DNA from: Lacrimispora sphenoides JCM 1415
Lineage (GTDB): Bacteria > Bacillota > Clostridia > Lachnospirales > Lachnospiraceae
Assembly (NCBI RefSeq): GCF_900105615.1
Contig: NZ_LT630003.1
Location: forward strand, 4,714,001-4,778,000
Reading direction: 5' to 3'
Length of the DNA stretch: 64,000 bases
How positions within the stretch are numbered: the first letter of the stretch is position 1; each line of letters begins with the position of its first letter. Below, in pieces: positions 20,186 to 24,346 of this stretch. The position numbers and the translations under genes are program-made. The notes beneath the pieces were generated by a model. That model was not told the DNA's origin. It saw nothing but the letters and a program-made list of their open reading frames with translations, and made no database searches.

Positions 20186-20217
20186 CAAAATGCCTCTTCC
20201 TTTCGGAAGAGGCATTT
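20186..20217 (-). terminator. Terminator of the ferredoxin gene
   Basis: AAATGCCTCTTCC (20188-20200) with GGAAGAGGCATTT (20205-20217), 13-bp perfect stem and tetraloop; on the minus strand the 3' arm runs into TTTTG. A, T-rich flanks could allow bidirectional use with the C26 gene. Confidence 0.75.
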
Positions 20218-20228
20218 ATGTATCATAA

Positions 20229-20399
20229 TTATGCTTCAGAAATAGCTCCTGTTGGACATACGCCCTCACAAGCGCCACAATCGATACATGCATCAGCATC
20301 AATAACAAACTGAGAATCACCCTGGCTAATAGCGCTTACTGGGCATTCACCTTCACAGCTTCCGCAGCTAACGCAAGCGTCACTAATAACTCGTGCCAT
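20229..20399 (-). CDS. 2[4Fe-4S] ferredoxin
   Basis: Short electron carrier, 56 residues, of the clostridial ferredoxin type. Two cluster motifs are visible: CVSCGSCEGECP near residues 9-20 and CIDCGACEGVCP near 38-49, each CxxCxxCxxxCP. It starts MARVISDA with AAGGAGG seven bases upstream. It has its own promoter in the 89-base gap after pflA. Its position directly behind pflA suggests it could supply the electron that PflA needs to cleave S-adenosylmethionine, but ferredoxins serve many partners. Confidence 0.95.
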   Translation of the reverse strand: MARVISDACVSCGSCEGECPVSAISQGDSQFVIDADACIDCGACEGVCPTGAISEA

Positions 20400-20488: not shown

Positions 20489-21262
20489 TTAATTTTGGGA
20501 GCAATACCGATCAGGGATTCCTGTGCGTACATCCCTGATTCCGCTTAAGATTATCTTCTTGGCGGCAACGGCACCATCCTTTGACATGGGGGGAATATCC
20601 TTTAAGGGATATTCCATACCCATGCTCTCGTATTTTACCTTTCCCATGTCGTGATAAGGCAGGACATCAAGGGCCTTCACATTCTTAAGCCCGCCGATAA
20701 AACGCCCCAGCCTGTATAGATCAGGGGTCTCATCCGTGATCTGCGGCACTGCCACATGACGGATCCACACCGGGATATCCCGGTCGCTTAAACACTGGGC
20801 AAAATCCAGAATGTTTTCATTGGAATGACCTGTAAGTGTTTTGTGCTTTGTATCAACAATTTGCTTGATGTCCAGCATGACAAGATCGGTAGAGTCCAAA
20901 AGCCGGTCTATTTTCTTCCTGTAATCCGGGTCATTCCTGTGAAACGTGACACCTGAAGTATCCAGGCAGGTATGGATGCTCTTCTTTCCTGCGGCTTCAA
21001 AAAGCTCAGTCACAAAATCCAGCTGCATAAGAGGCTCTCCGCCGGTGGCCGTGATGCCTCCGCCCCGGTAAAAATTCCGGGACGACTCATACTGCTTTAA
21101 TAGTTCTTCTACCGTCATTGCCGTGCCGCCCGCCATCTTCCAGGTGTCCGGATTATGGCAATATTGGCAGCGCATGGGACAGCCTTGTAAAAAAATCACC
21201 ATACGCACACCCGGTCCGTCAACGGTACCGAAGCTTTCAATGGAATGGATATATCCTGTCAT
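20489..21262 (-). CDS. pflA: Pyruvate formate-lyase activating enzyme
   Basis: Radical SAM enzyme that abstracts a hydrogen from the glycine of pyruvate formate-lyase to create the glycyl radical. The 257 residues begin with the glycyl-radical-activase signature SFGTVDGPGVR and carry the cluster motif C28-x3-C32-x2-C35 (GCPMRCQYCHNP). GG-E block TGGEPLMQ follows. Length is close to E. coli PflA (246). It lies 21 bases behind the separate glycyl-radical-domain gene, its target. RBS AAGAAGGCGAT. Confidence 0.95.
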   Translation of the reverse strand: MTGYIHSIESFGTVDGPGVRMVIFLQGCPMRCQYCHNPDTWKMAGGTAMTVEELLKQYESSRNFYRGGGITATGGEPLMQLDFVTELFEAAGKKSIHTCLDTSGVTFHRNDPDYRKKIDRLLDSTDLVMLDIKQIVDTKHKTLTGHSNENILDFAQCLSDRDIPVWIRHVAVPQITDETPDLYRLGRFIGGLKNVKALDVLPYHDMGKVKYESMGMEYPLKDIPPMSKDGAVAAKKIILSGIRDVRTGIPDRYCSQN

Positions 21263-21283: not shown

Positions 21284-21529
21284 TTACATATTGTTGTGGA
21301 ACGTACGGGAGATTACCTCATCCTGCTGTTCCTTTGTCAGCTTGATAAAATTCACCGCATAACCGGATACGCGCACGGTAAGCTGGGGATAACTTTCCGG
21401 ATGCTTCTGAGCGTCTAATAAGGTATCACGGGTGAATACATTAACATTTAAGTGATGTCCGCCTTCTTCTACATAGCCATCTAATAAATTAACAAGGTTA
21501 TTGATTTGAGATTCGCTGATATTTGCCAT
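21284..21529 (-). CDS. Separate glycyl-radical domain of pyruvate formate-lyase
   Basis: 81-residue protein equal to the extreme C-terminus of E. coli PflB. It shares LLDGY, a GG-H/Q-HLNVNV stretch, [15 protein letters not shown] and [14 protein letters not shown], in order. Gly56 in RVSGYA corresponds to the radical-bearing Gly734. It resembles the spare-part protein GrcA/YfiD, but here it sits in the pfl operon behind a core enzyme that lacks this domain, so it is expected to be an essential subunit and not a repair part. Own start (MANISESQ) with AGGAGG and own stop; 21 bases separate it from the upstream small gene. Confidence 0.9.
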
Positions 21530-21550
21530 TTTATAATCCTCCTATTGTAT

Positions 21551-21820
21551 TTAATAAGTGTCTTCCATAAACAGCCGGTTGCTTTCCGGGTCTTCATCTT
21601 CTGTATCCAAGGCCTGGAATAAAGTGGGCACTCTGCAGGCGGAATTTCCGTCTGCACAATCCGTGGAGTTTGTGGTAGTAACTGATTTAGCCATTGTTTC
21701 ATCGGTACTTACAGTACCGTCTTCTGATACGCGGATGTTCATATGTCCGCCGCTTCCAGCCATGAACTGGTCAAGCATGGAGACGATATCGTCAATCTGT
21801 TTCTCCTTTGGATCTGCCAT
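21551..21820 (-). CDS. Small pfl-operon protein, paralogue of the glycyl-radical domain without the radical motif
   Basis: 89 residues between the PFL core and the glycyl-radical protein. Its N-terminus, KQIDDIVSMLDQFMAGSGGH followed by MNIRV, aligns with [20 protein letters not shown] and LNVNV of its neighbour, so the two share ancestry. After about residue 30 it diverges: a Ser/Thr/Asp-rich stretch, two or three cysteines (DCADGNSACRVPTL) and an acidic tail. No RVSGYA is present, so it cannot carry the radical. Function unknown; a structural or regulatory subunit of the split enzyme is the simplest idea. ATG 21820 has AAGGAG; a GTG nine bases upstream is too close to that site. Confidence 0.75.
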   Translation of the reverse strand: MADPKEKQIDDIVSMLDQFMAGSGGHMNIRVSEDGTVSTDETMAKSVTTTNSTDCADGNSACRVPTLFQALDTEDEDPESNRLFMEDTY

Positions 21821-21832
21821 AATAACCACTCC

Positions 21833-23893
21833 TTATTTCTGGTCTTCGCTGAGAGCCAGCTCTAAATCCACCTCTAAATCTCCTGTGAAGATCTGATCTT
21901 CTTTGCCAAGGGCTCCCGGTACGATAGAGAATGTATTGGAGATCCCATCCTGGGCATCTCTGAACGGAAGCTTTGCAACCGATGCCAGGGAAGCGACAGC
22001 ACCGTGAGTATCTCTAAGGTGCATTGGGTTTGCGCCAGGCGCAAAGGCTTCACCCTTCTTACGTCCGTCAGGAGTTGCTCCTGTATTCTTACCATATACT
22101 ACGTTGGAAGTGATTGTTAAGATTGAGGTGGTTGGAATGCCGCCGCGGTAAGTGTGGTTTCCTTTTACATAGTTCATAAAGGTGTGAACCAGTTCGTTTG
22201 CGATCATGTCTACCCGGTCATCGTTATTGCCGTATTTGGGGAAGTCGCCTTCTACGATATAATCGGTTACGATTCCGTTTTCATCCCGTACGGTTTTAAC
22301 CTTGGCATATTTGATGGCGGATAAGGAGTCAGCCACTACGGAAAGTCCGGCAATACCGGTTGCGAACCAACGGGTTACCTTTTTATCGTGAAGAGCCATC
22401 TGAATACGCTCATAGCTGTATTTGTCATGCATATAGTGAATGACGTTCAAGGTGTTTACATAAACCCTTGCAAGCCAGTTCATCATATCCTTATAGGCAG
22501 CCATAACCTCTTCATAATCCAGGTACTCGGAAGTGATGGGGCGGTATTTGGGGCCGACCTGTTTTTTGGTGACTTCATCAATGCCGCCGTTAATAGCATA
22601 TAACAGGCATTTTGCAAGATTGGCCCTTGCGCCGAAGTTCTGCATTTCCTTACCAACCCTCATGGAAGATACGCAGCAGGCAATGGCATAATCATCTCCA
22701 TGTGTCACTCTCATCAGGTCATCGTTCTCATACTGAATGGAAGAGGATTCAATGGAAGTCCTTGCGCAGAAGCGCTTAAAGTTTTCCGGAAGCTTTGTAG
22801 ACCAGAGCACGGTTAAGTTTGGCTCAGGAGCTGTTCCCAGATTCGTAAGGGTGTGGAGGTAGCGGAAGGAAGTCTTGGTCACCAGATGGCGTCCGTCGAT
22901 GCCGACTCCTCCGATGGATTCTGTTACCCAGGTAGGATCGCCGGAGAACAGCTCATTGTATTCCGGAGTACGGGCGAATTTTACCAGACGAAGCTTCATG
23001 ATGAAATGATCCACGAACTCCTGAATCTGCTCTTCGGTAAAGGTTCCATCTTCTAAATCTCTCTGTGCATAAACATCAATAAAGGTGGAGGTGCGGCCTA
23101 AGGACATGGCTGCTCCGTTTTGTTCCTTGACAGCGGCAAGGTAGGCAAAGTACAGCCACTGGATCGCCTCTTCTACGTTGGCTGCCGGTTTTGAAATATC
23201 AAAGCCATAGATGCTTCCCAGCTCCTTTAATTCCTTAAGGGCACGGATCTGCTCAGAAAGCTCTTCTCTTTCCCGGATCACGTCAGAATACATGGTAGTA
23301 CGTGTTGTATCCTTCTGCTCTTCCTTATCTGCGATCAGGCGGTCAATGCCGTAAAGGGCCACCCGGCGGTAATCTCCGATGATGCGGCCGCGGCCATAGG
23401 CATCCGGAAGGCCTGTGATGATGTGGTTGGAACGGCAGTCACGCATTTCCTGGGTATAAGCATCAAAAACGCCTGCATTGTGTGTCTTTCTGTGAATCGT
23501 AAAAAATTTCTTAACTTCAGGATCAATGGTATAACCATTATCCGCGCAGGCCTTCTCTGCCATACGGATACCGCCGTAAGGCTGTAAGGAACGCTTAAAA
23601 GGCTTATCAGTCTGAAAGCCTACGATTGTTTCTTTGTCTTTATCTAAATATCCCGGTCCGTGGGAAGTGATGGTGGAAATGTTCTTTGTATCCATATCCA
23701 GCACGCCGCCGGCCTCCCGCTCCTGTTTGGATAAATCCATAACCTGCGCCCAAAGAGCGTTTGTTGCTGTGGTAGGTCCGGCAAGAAAGGAATCATCGCC
23801 GTCATAAGGAGTGTAATTTTTCTGTATAAAGTCCCTGACGTTGATCTCCCGTTCCCAAACACCGCCCGTGAAAGCTCTCCATTCTGTTCTCAT
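21833..23893 (-). CDS. pflB: Pyruvate formate-lyase core, lacking the C-terminal glycyl-radical domain
   Basis: Formate C-acetyltransferase: pyruvate + CoA to acetyl-CoA + formate, the main anaerobic pyruvate route. From ATG 23893 (GGAGGAA upstream) it has 686 residues against 760 in E. coli. It aligns throughout: [33 protein letters not shown], catalytic Cys406-Cys407 in [21 protein letters not shown], and it ends just after [13 protein letters not shown]. The last 70 or so residues, including RVSGYA, are missing and are encoded by the separate gene 21284-21529. The gene has a normal stop with a new ribosome site following, so this is a genuine split and not a frameshift. A TTG start at 23932 is possible but would add an unrelated N-terminal extension. 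Confidence 0.95.
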
Positions 23894-23960: not shown

Positions 23961-24015
23961 ATTCATACAACCTTTGTATGAATACATTATATATGAATAC
24001 TGTATACAATGTCAA
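23961..24015 (-). promoter_or_regulatory. pfl operon promoter and downstream operator
   Basis: On the minus strand TTGACA (24015-24010), 18-base spacer, TATAAT (23991-23986). Just downstream is a perfect inverted repeat ATTCATACAA (23961-23970) / TTGTATGAAT (23974-23983), and a further half-site ATGAATAC lies in the spacer. The position over the transcription start suggests repression. It does not match the Rex consensus (TTGTTAANNNNTTAACAA) well. Confidence 0.65.
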
Positions 24016-24145: not shown

Positions 24146-24346
24146 ATGCAGATCCAGAAGGATATGTTAATAGGAGCATTGCTTGAAATGGACGAGAACA
24201 TTGCACCTATGTTAATGCGCGCAGGTATGCATTGCCTCGGCTGTCCGGCATCTCAGGGTGAGTCCCTGGAGGAAGCCTGCCAGGTTCATGGAATAGACTG
24301 TGATGTACTGGTTTCCCAGATTAACGAAGTGTTAGCAGAAGTATAG
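24146..24346 (+). CDS. DUF1858 domain protein
   Basis: 66-residue protein of the DUF1858 (ScdA_N-like, hybrid-cluster-associated) family, divergent from the pfl operon. Motif [18 protein letters not shown] gives a CxxC pair plus a third cysteine; another Cys (GIDCDV) follows. Such proteins are thought to be redox-active or metal/NO-linked, but no activity is established. Excellent AAGGAGG at 24132-24138 and its own terminator. Shares the divergent promoter region with pfl, so it may respond to the same anaerobic or redox signal. Confidence 0.8.

Follow-up and report, generated by a model that had tools for sequence, protein, structure and literature searches.

We have identified in Lacrimispora sphenoides JCM 1415 a pyruvate formate-lyase (PFL) that is, in all likelihood, naturally split: its core carries the catalytic cysteines, and a small separate protein, GrcA3, would serve as its obligate radical subunit. 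Between the two genes lies a third, cysteine-bearing gene, and at related loci a cysteine element occurs either as such a gene or as a tail on the core. In many gut anaerobes PFL is one of the main sources of acetyl-CoA and formate; oxygen cuts its radical-bearing chain. Should a natural form with a detachable radical subunit be widespread, many Clostridia would routinely build PFL on the spare-part principle that E. coli keeps for emergency repair. The cysteine element, whose two genetic forms have been exchanged many times, offers a testable clue to active-site protection in an open glycyl-radical enzyme.

Results

Organization of the operon

The window is the whole stretch of DNA analysed, 64,000 nucleotides of contig NZ_LT630003.1 (positions 4,714,001 to 4,778,000). 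A preliminary description of it had presented a two-part enzyme; the core and the radical subunit are indeed separate, but a third gene between them (21551-21820) had been overlooked, and with this cysteine-bearing third element the enzyme is not two-part. The features, in window positions, are as follows:

23986..24015, minus strand: promoter-like site upstream of the core, TTGACA-18-TATAAT, matching the consensus at 12 of 12 positions
21833..23893, minus strand: PFL core, 686 aa, with Cys406-Cys407 and without the glycyl-radical domain (TIGR01255 and 1h16 alignment)
21551..21820, minus strand: middle gene, 89 aa (translation, homologues, profile comparison with GrcA3, ribosome site AAGGAG)
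21284..21529, minus strand: grcA3, predicted glycyl-radical subunit, 81 aa, radical Gly56 in RVSGYA (NF038360, PFL alignment)
20489..21262, minus strand: pflA, PFL-activating radical SAM enzyme, 257 aa (TIGR02493, 301 bits; cut-off 232)
20229..20399: small ferredoxin-like gene downstream of pflA (Fer4 match)
20188..20217, minus strand: terminator-like stem of 13 pairs after the ferredoxin-like gene

The order on the minus strand is core, middle gene, grcA3 and pflA, with gaps of 12, 21 and 21 nt, respectively, and ribosome sites stand upstream of the core, the middle gene (AAGGAG) and grcA3 (AGGAGG). Promoter-like sites number 13 in the region against 9.6 (sd 2.8) in shuffles, so only the match at all 12 consensus positions deserves attention. 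Shuffled sequences give 4.2 terminator-like sites (sd 2.5) where the region has 8.

A perfect inverted repeat, ATTCATACAA-3 nt-TTGTATGAAT, lies near the PFL promoter-like site at 23961-23983 of the window and is possibly an operator. Divergent from the PFL operon, at 24146-24346 on the plus strand, is a gene for a DUF1858 protein with a CLGCP motif, which we take to be of the redox-disulfide type. At 33 of 136 loci a pattern search met a small C-x-G-C ORF upstream of the core; 15 of these ORFs were inspected and look like members of the same family as the DUF1858 protein.

The core and GrcA3

The core scores 1095.3 bits against the NCBIfam model for PFL, TIGR01255 (cut-off 994.2), matching model positions 2-665 of 744, and has the adjacent catalytic cysteines Cys406-Cys407. 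By this curated model it is a true pyruvate formate-lyase, for which formate-producing activity is predicted. In alignment with E. coli PFL (1h16) it accounts for chain residues 8-682 of 759 and is 77 residues short, which bears out the earlier account of a 686-aa core with Cys406-407 that lacks the C-terminal end of PflB.

The glycyl-radical domain, absent from the core chain, which ends at TIGR01255 position 665 of 744, is carried by GrcA3. This 81-aa protein reaches 167.1 bits with NF038360 (autonomous glycyl radical cofactor GrcA3; cut-off 158) and aligns to E. coli PFL residues 680-759. The radical glycine in its RVSGYA-type loop, Gly56, is invariant over 22 aligned GrcA3 rows. The preliminary description had correctly placed this glycine on an independent 81-aa gene with its own ribosome site, AGGAGG upstream, and had proposed aligning both proteins to PflB structures. 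That alignment covers residues 8-682 (core) and 680-759 (GrcA3); since residues 8-759 are covered between them, the two would together make one complete enzyme.

In comparisons with four close relatives, in which synonymous sites are near saturation, pN/pS was 0.087-0.105 in the core and 0.059-0.106 in grcA3; the middle gene, at 0.22-0.36, was higher than its neighbours. All three genes are maintained, and the middle gene is under looser constraint.

The split enzyme as the sole TIGR01255 PFL of the genome

The genome is one contig of 5,300,135 bases and is 99.93% complete. Profile searches with PF02901, PF01228, NF038360 and TIGR01255 found no full-length PFL hidden in it. The PFL-like domain was met in four places and the glycine-radical domain in six. 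Curated models typed the three other PFL-like matches as CutC (1691 bits), a PFL2-family enzyme and a more distant glycyl radical enzyme; besides these three full-length enzymes, a further glycine-radical-domain match lies in a 730-aa frame. The locus in the window is the genome's only TIGR01255 match at E up to 1e-150. The genome-wide search for a full-length PFL that the preliminary description had suggested therefore leaves the split enzyme as the sole TIGR01255 PFL, and the claim that the small protein is an obligate radical subunit is well supported in this closed genome. Because no full-length PFL was found, we regard GrcA3 as very probably the obligate radical subunit of a split enzyme, not a spare part.

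It is very improbable that GrcA3 is an ordinary spare part while another, intact PFL does the work. The NCBI family name, "autonomous glycyl radical cofactor", favours that reading, and the available part of a mycoplasma genome paper interprets its PFL and radical cofactor in this way (PMC5476646), but the closed genome yielded no intact TIGR01255 PFL and the core has no radical domain of its own. A spare part repairs an otherwise complete PFL in the same cell, and no complete PFL was found here, though GrcA3 may still resemble such a part in being replaceable; in split-PFL genomes the "cofactor" is probably an essential subunit. That the parts form one chain, through a sequencing error, a frameshift or stop-codon readthrough, is extremely improbable. 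The core, the middle gene and grcA3 do share one reading frame in the window, as a single chain would, but over loci the relative frames are near even: 21/24/20 for the middle gene against the core, and for grcA3 against the core 21/23/22 in loci of the middle-gene type and 24/30/15 in those of the tail type. Each gene moreover has a ribosome site, and a duplicate half domain stands between the core and grcA3. The near-even frames, with purifying selection on all three genes, argue that the split is neither error nor recoding; the sequencing error that the preliminary description had named as fatal to its claim is ruled out, as is recoding, by ribosome sites, frames and conservation.

The middle protein

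The first 35 residues of the middle protein, its N-terminal half, match the start of GrcA3 with an hhalign probability of 96.1 (E 3.5e-9, 35 columns), and in many class genomes the first half of the middle-protein profile also hits ordinary PFLs in their radical domains, at E of about 1e-3 to 1e-6. Judged by these profile comparisons, the N-terminal half is homologous to the first half of the glycyl-radical domain. The radical glycine loop was not found in the middle protein: the match to GrcA3 ends before the loop, and there is no RVSGYA-type motif. The C-terminal half has a cysteine pair, C55 and C62. All of 45 middle proteins have C55 and at least 90% have C62, although the presence of the cysteine pair and the invariance of G-H and cysteine are partly by construction, since the patterns used in the search for middle genes demanded these residues.

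The middle protein has no Pfam match at E up to 1, and PF01228 is matched by 3 of its 45 homologues (best E 0.01). Among NCBIfam models it matches only the N-terminal half of GrcA3, at 20.6 bits, far below the cut-off of 158, and 27 of the 45 homologues do likewise; for annotation, this means that the short gene beside grcA3 matches no named family above its cut-off. A low-confidence model of its predicted fold found no PDB match at E below 1 (best Foldseek E 2.9), and a PDB profile search with the middle family returned two matches only, to unrelated proteins (E 0.45 and 0.83).

Distribution of the split form

Stand-alone GrcA3, taken as an open frame of 80-159 aa and counted by hand as a lower bound, occurs in at least 80 of 200 genomes of the Lachnospiraceae family sample. 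The arrangement is not peculiar to this genome: the small protein belongs to the catalogued GrcA3 family, and two truncated cores are present in the PDB. Among these genomes, TIGR01255 matches exactly once in 76, twice in 3 and not at all in 1. The second match in the three (G085, G119, G132) is full-length and stands alongside stand-alone GrcA3; the genome without a match at the threshold used (G022) has its locus near a contig end. At the level of the class, stand-alone GrcA3 was found in 23 of 391 genomes, in frames of 78-106 aa and under nine family codes; most other class matches fall in frames as long as a PFL, which makes the unsplit form the more frequent one there. The middle-protein profile is matched over its full length at E below 1e-10 in 10 of the 391 class genomes.

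The named loci are the best 80 of 582 by GrcA3 similarity, a choice that favours split forms, and include Lacrimispora amygdalina (94% GrcA3 identity), Claveliimonas bilis, Blautia, Ruminococcus and bins labelled Gastranaerophilales, labels that may be wrong. At 11 loci GrcA3 showed no core upstream; TIGR01255 has a match in 10 of these 11 genomes and none in one. Six of the matches reach the cut-off, each with its end at model position 663, and the other four are partial. Five of the six cores, from Gastranaerophilales-labelled or uncultured bins, bear a tail such as LDCGCCEGTC, and in 4 of these 5 bins (four Gastranaerophilales-labelled) another GrcA3 directly follows the tailed core; the sixth core (G590) is followed by a middle gene and GrcA3. 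At two loci in Gastranaerophilales-labelled bins (L236 and L238), the GrcA3 beside the split core has terminal cysteines of its own, NNCGC and NSCGC.

The cysteine element as gene or tail

Among 140 split loci, 69 have a core tail, 66 have a middle gene, none has both and five have neither (L066, L092, L184, L197, L215); this count includes two exact duplicate pairs (L044/L139, L050/L154), takes in L215 by inspection and enters L083 and L155 as having a middle gene. The five loci with neither form indicate that the cysteine element is not indispensable or lies elsewhere. Of 194 loci, 42 were unclassified, among them contig ends, orphan GrcA3 loci and L215, as well as 12 unsplit PFLs; a separate reading of these 12 showed no cysteine pair at the joint in any of them. 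In a smaller set of 71 loci the figures were 43 middle gene, 25 tail, 0 both and 3 neither, and two of these three (L051 and L076) have a shortened middle gene that ends after CxxC. At one of the five loci with neither form (L066, genome G130) the truncated core and GrcA3 are separated by the activase gene, and the interval showed no cysteine element.

The tails are C-terminal on the core and carry two or three cysteines, as in DCANMACNIPN, CSNGACSSPTL, DCACCEP and GCCE. Cysteine makes up 6.7% of the core tails in the tail type against 1.2% of the cores, and none of 1232 core-tail residues in the middle-gene type. Over both forms an element has two or three cysteines, rarely four, and the two nearest each other are separated by 0 to 6 residues in tails and by 0 to 8 in middle proteins. 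In the AlphaFold model of one tailed core (L053), residues 662-707 fall under pLDDT 50; the cysteine tail is disordered, and the model gave no placement of it in the active site.

A FastTree phylogeny of 147 cores, from which three short rows, two duplicates and the 12 separately read unsplit PFLs were left out and for which no root was inferred, requires at least 13 changes between the tail and middle-gene states. On well-supported branches alone, each label still undergoes at least 7 gains or losses. Supported branches supply six independent pairs for tail versus middle gene, of which a mean of 4.6 are as expected and none against (median p 0.06), so on independent pairs the mutual exclusion is suggestive only.

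Unsplit relatives

The cysteine element is absent from the joint in 24 of 25 unsplit PFLs (L132-L135, L210, L216-L235). The lone exception, L132, has a cysteine-rich stretch, TCGCEEVTCAV, at the joint. Its single 774-aa frame, with core, cysteine-rich joint and radical domain, is a natural fusion of all three that should be useful for structure work.

Six unsplit PFLs (L133, L134, L135, L210, L225, L226) form a well-supported group nested within the split forms. This arrangement reads most simply as a re-fusion with loss of the cysteine element, a direction that we infer, as the tree program did not place a root. Independent pairs for split state versus cysteine element are 2 for and 0 against (p 0.5). 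In the samples examined, the cysteine element accompanies the detached state.

Discussion

The split enzyme could work as follows. GrcA3 would bind the core and add the missing barrel strand and the radical loop; PflA would activate GrcA3, and the radical would then move to the Cys406-407 pair. When oxygen cuts the chain at the glycine, GrcA3 would be replaced and the core retained. For the cysteine-pair element we tentatively propose a flexible arm bearing a dithiol, which would fill or guard the opening while GrcA3 is away. In the middle protein, the half radical domain would dock and the cysteines would take the place of the glycine loop, so as to cap the site or to return the catalytic cysteines to the reduced state. 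In its general form the proposal is equally provisional: a dithiol guard may accompany detachment of the radical domain, its arm entering the vacated site, keeping the catalytic cysteines reduced or restoring them, and alternating with GrcA3 in one socket. Certain ribonucleotide reductases have a C-terminal cysteine arm, which the proposed guard would resemble. If this reading is true, this is a radical enzyme that can exchange its radical subunit and that has a repair arm built in.

Other explanations of the cysteine element have to be weighed against the dithiol guard. In E. coli, an engineered truncated PFL(1-695) combined with YfiD shows wild-type activity once activated, which favours a working split enzyme, while YfiD binding to the truncated PFL is too weak to measure and activation is 32-fold less, according to the available part of PMC8683613; a simple split therefore need not work well. 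The same source states that YfiD binding needs PFL fragment 696-733, which is left on oxygen-cleaved PFL (PMC8683613). The middle protein resembles part of this 696-733 region, its N-terminal half being homologous to the first half of the radical domain, so the chief task of the middle protein or tail might be to dock or recognize GrcA3 or the activase, with cysteines that do no redox chemistry. We consider this possible, if less likely than not, for the tail form does without the radical-domain half and keeps the cysteine part alone, and the cysteines are the feature that tail and middle protein have in common. A metal or iron-sulfur cluster bound by the element, as in the accessory subunits of benzylsuccinate synthase, is unlikely. 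Two or three cysteines per element, rarely four, would suit such a site, and other glycyl radical enzymes have iron-sulfur accessory subunits, as the available part of PMC12590467 describes; against this, the number and spacing of the cysteines vary widely (0 to 6 in tails, 0 to 8 in middle proteins). A fixed metal site usually allows less variation in spacing than these elements display. Less probable again is that the middle gene is a functionless, decaying remnant of a duplicated radical domain. It does encode only one half of the domain, and its pN/pS of 0.22-0.36 marks faster evolution than in the adjacent genes, but these values are well below 1, and homologues with an intact frame and the cysteine pair occur in 66 of 140 split loci, with a cysteine tail in 69 others.

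In E. coli PflB (TIGR01255; 1h16, 2pfl) the radical domain is on the same chain, whereas here it is a separate protein accompanied by a cysteine element. GrcA/YfiD (TIGR04365; 6owr) is, like GrcA3, a stand-alone radical domain that acts on PFL from outside, as is T4 Y06I. YfiD, however, replaces the broken end of an intact PFL, while GrcA3 would serve a PFL that never had the end; YfiD also has a disordered N-terminal half, which GrcA3 lacks, beginning at the helix before the strand. The name of NF038360 implies a spare part, but the genome context here would make its member a subunit. The closest solved chains to the core are PDB 38la and 38lb ("Formate acetyltransferase", from other species), which we know from their sequences alone. 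Neither is among the PDB matches of GrcA3, so both lack the radical domain, and a GrcA3 search of the PDB found no GrcA3 chain accompanying them; 38lb runs beyond the core with a CxxC (GECDMCEM). The depositors evidently work on truncated PFL cores. The beta and gamma subunits of benzylsuccinate synthase are, like the middle protein, small cysteine-bearing partners of a glycyl radical enzyme, but they are iron-sulfur proteins of HiPIP-like fold serving an intact catalytic chain, while the middle protein appears to derive from half a radical domain. Aminoacyl radical enzymes with another residue at the glycine position were considered and set aside, as GrcA3 keeps the glycine; the available text of PMC11528403 on those enzymes does not contain "spare part", "truncated" or "YfiD".

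Already known are PFL and PflA, the spare-part principle, the name of the GrcA3 family and the two deposited truncated cores (38la, 38lb). The available parts of PMC9403272, PMC7478625 and the preprint PMC13252398 do not describe a split PFL. "GrcA3" had no match in the open-access literature searched, and none of the open-access matches listed described a naturally split PFL or the cysteine element. As far as these searches go, what is new within the open-access literature is that the split form is the sole TIGR01255 PFL in most genomes that have it, together with the middle protein, the gene-or-tail rule and the absence of the element from nearly all unsplit relatives examined.

Ten genomes (G031, G041, G042, G064, G080, G097, G112, G144, G184, G190) have a second stand-alone GrcA3, at loci L069, L085, L091, L106, L108, L112, L114, L124, L127 and L131. 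No core was found beside the second copy at these ten loci, the copies in G097 lying near contig ends, and these second copies might be true spares. In G042 the second GrcA3 is preceded by an ORF that, by eye, resembles a Crp/Fnr-type regulator.
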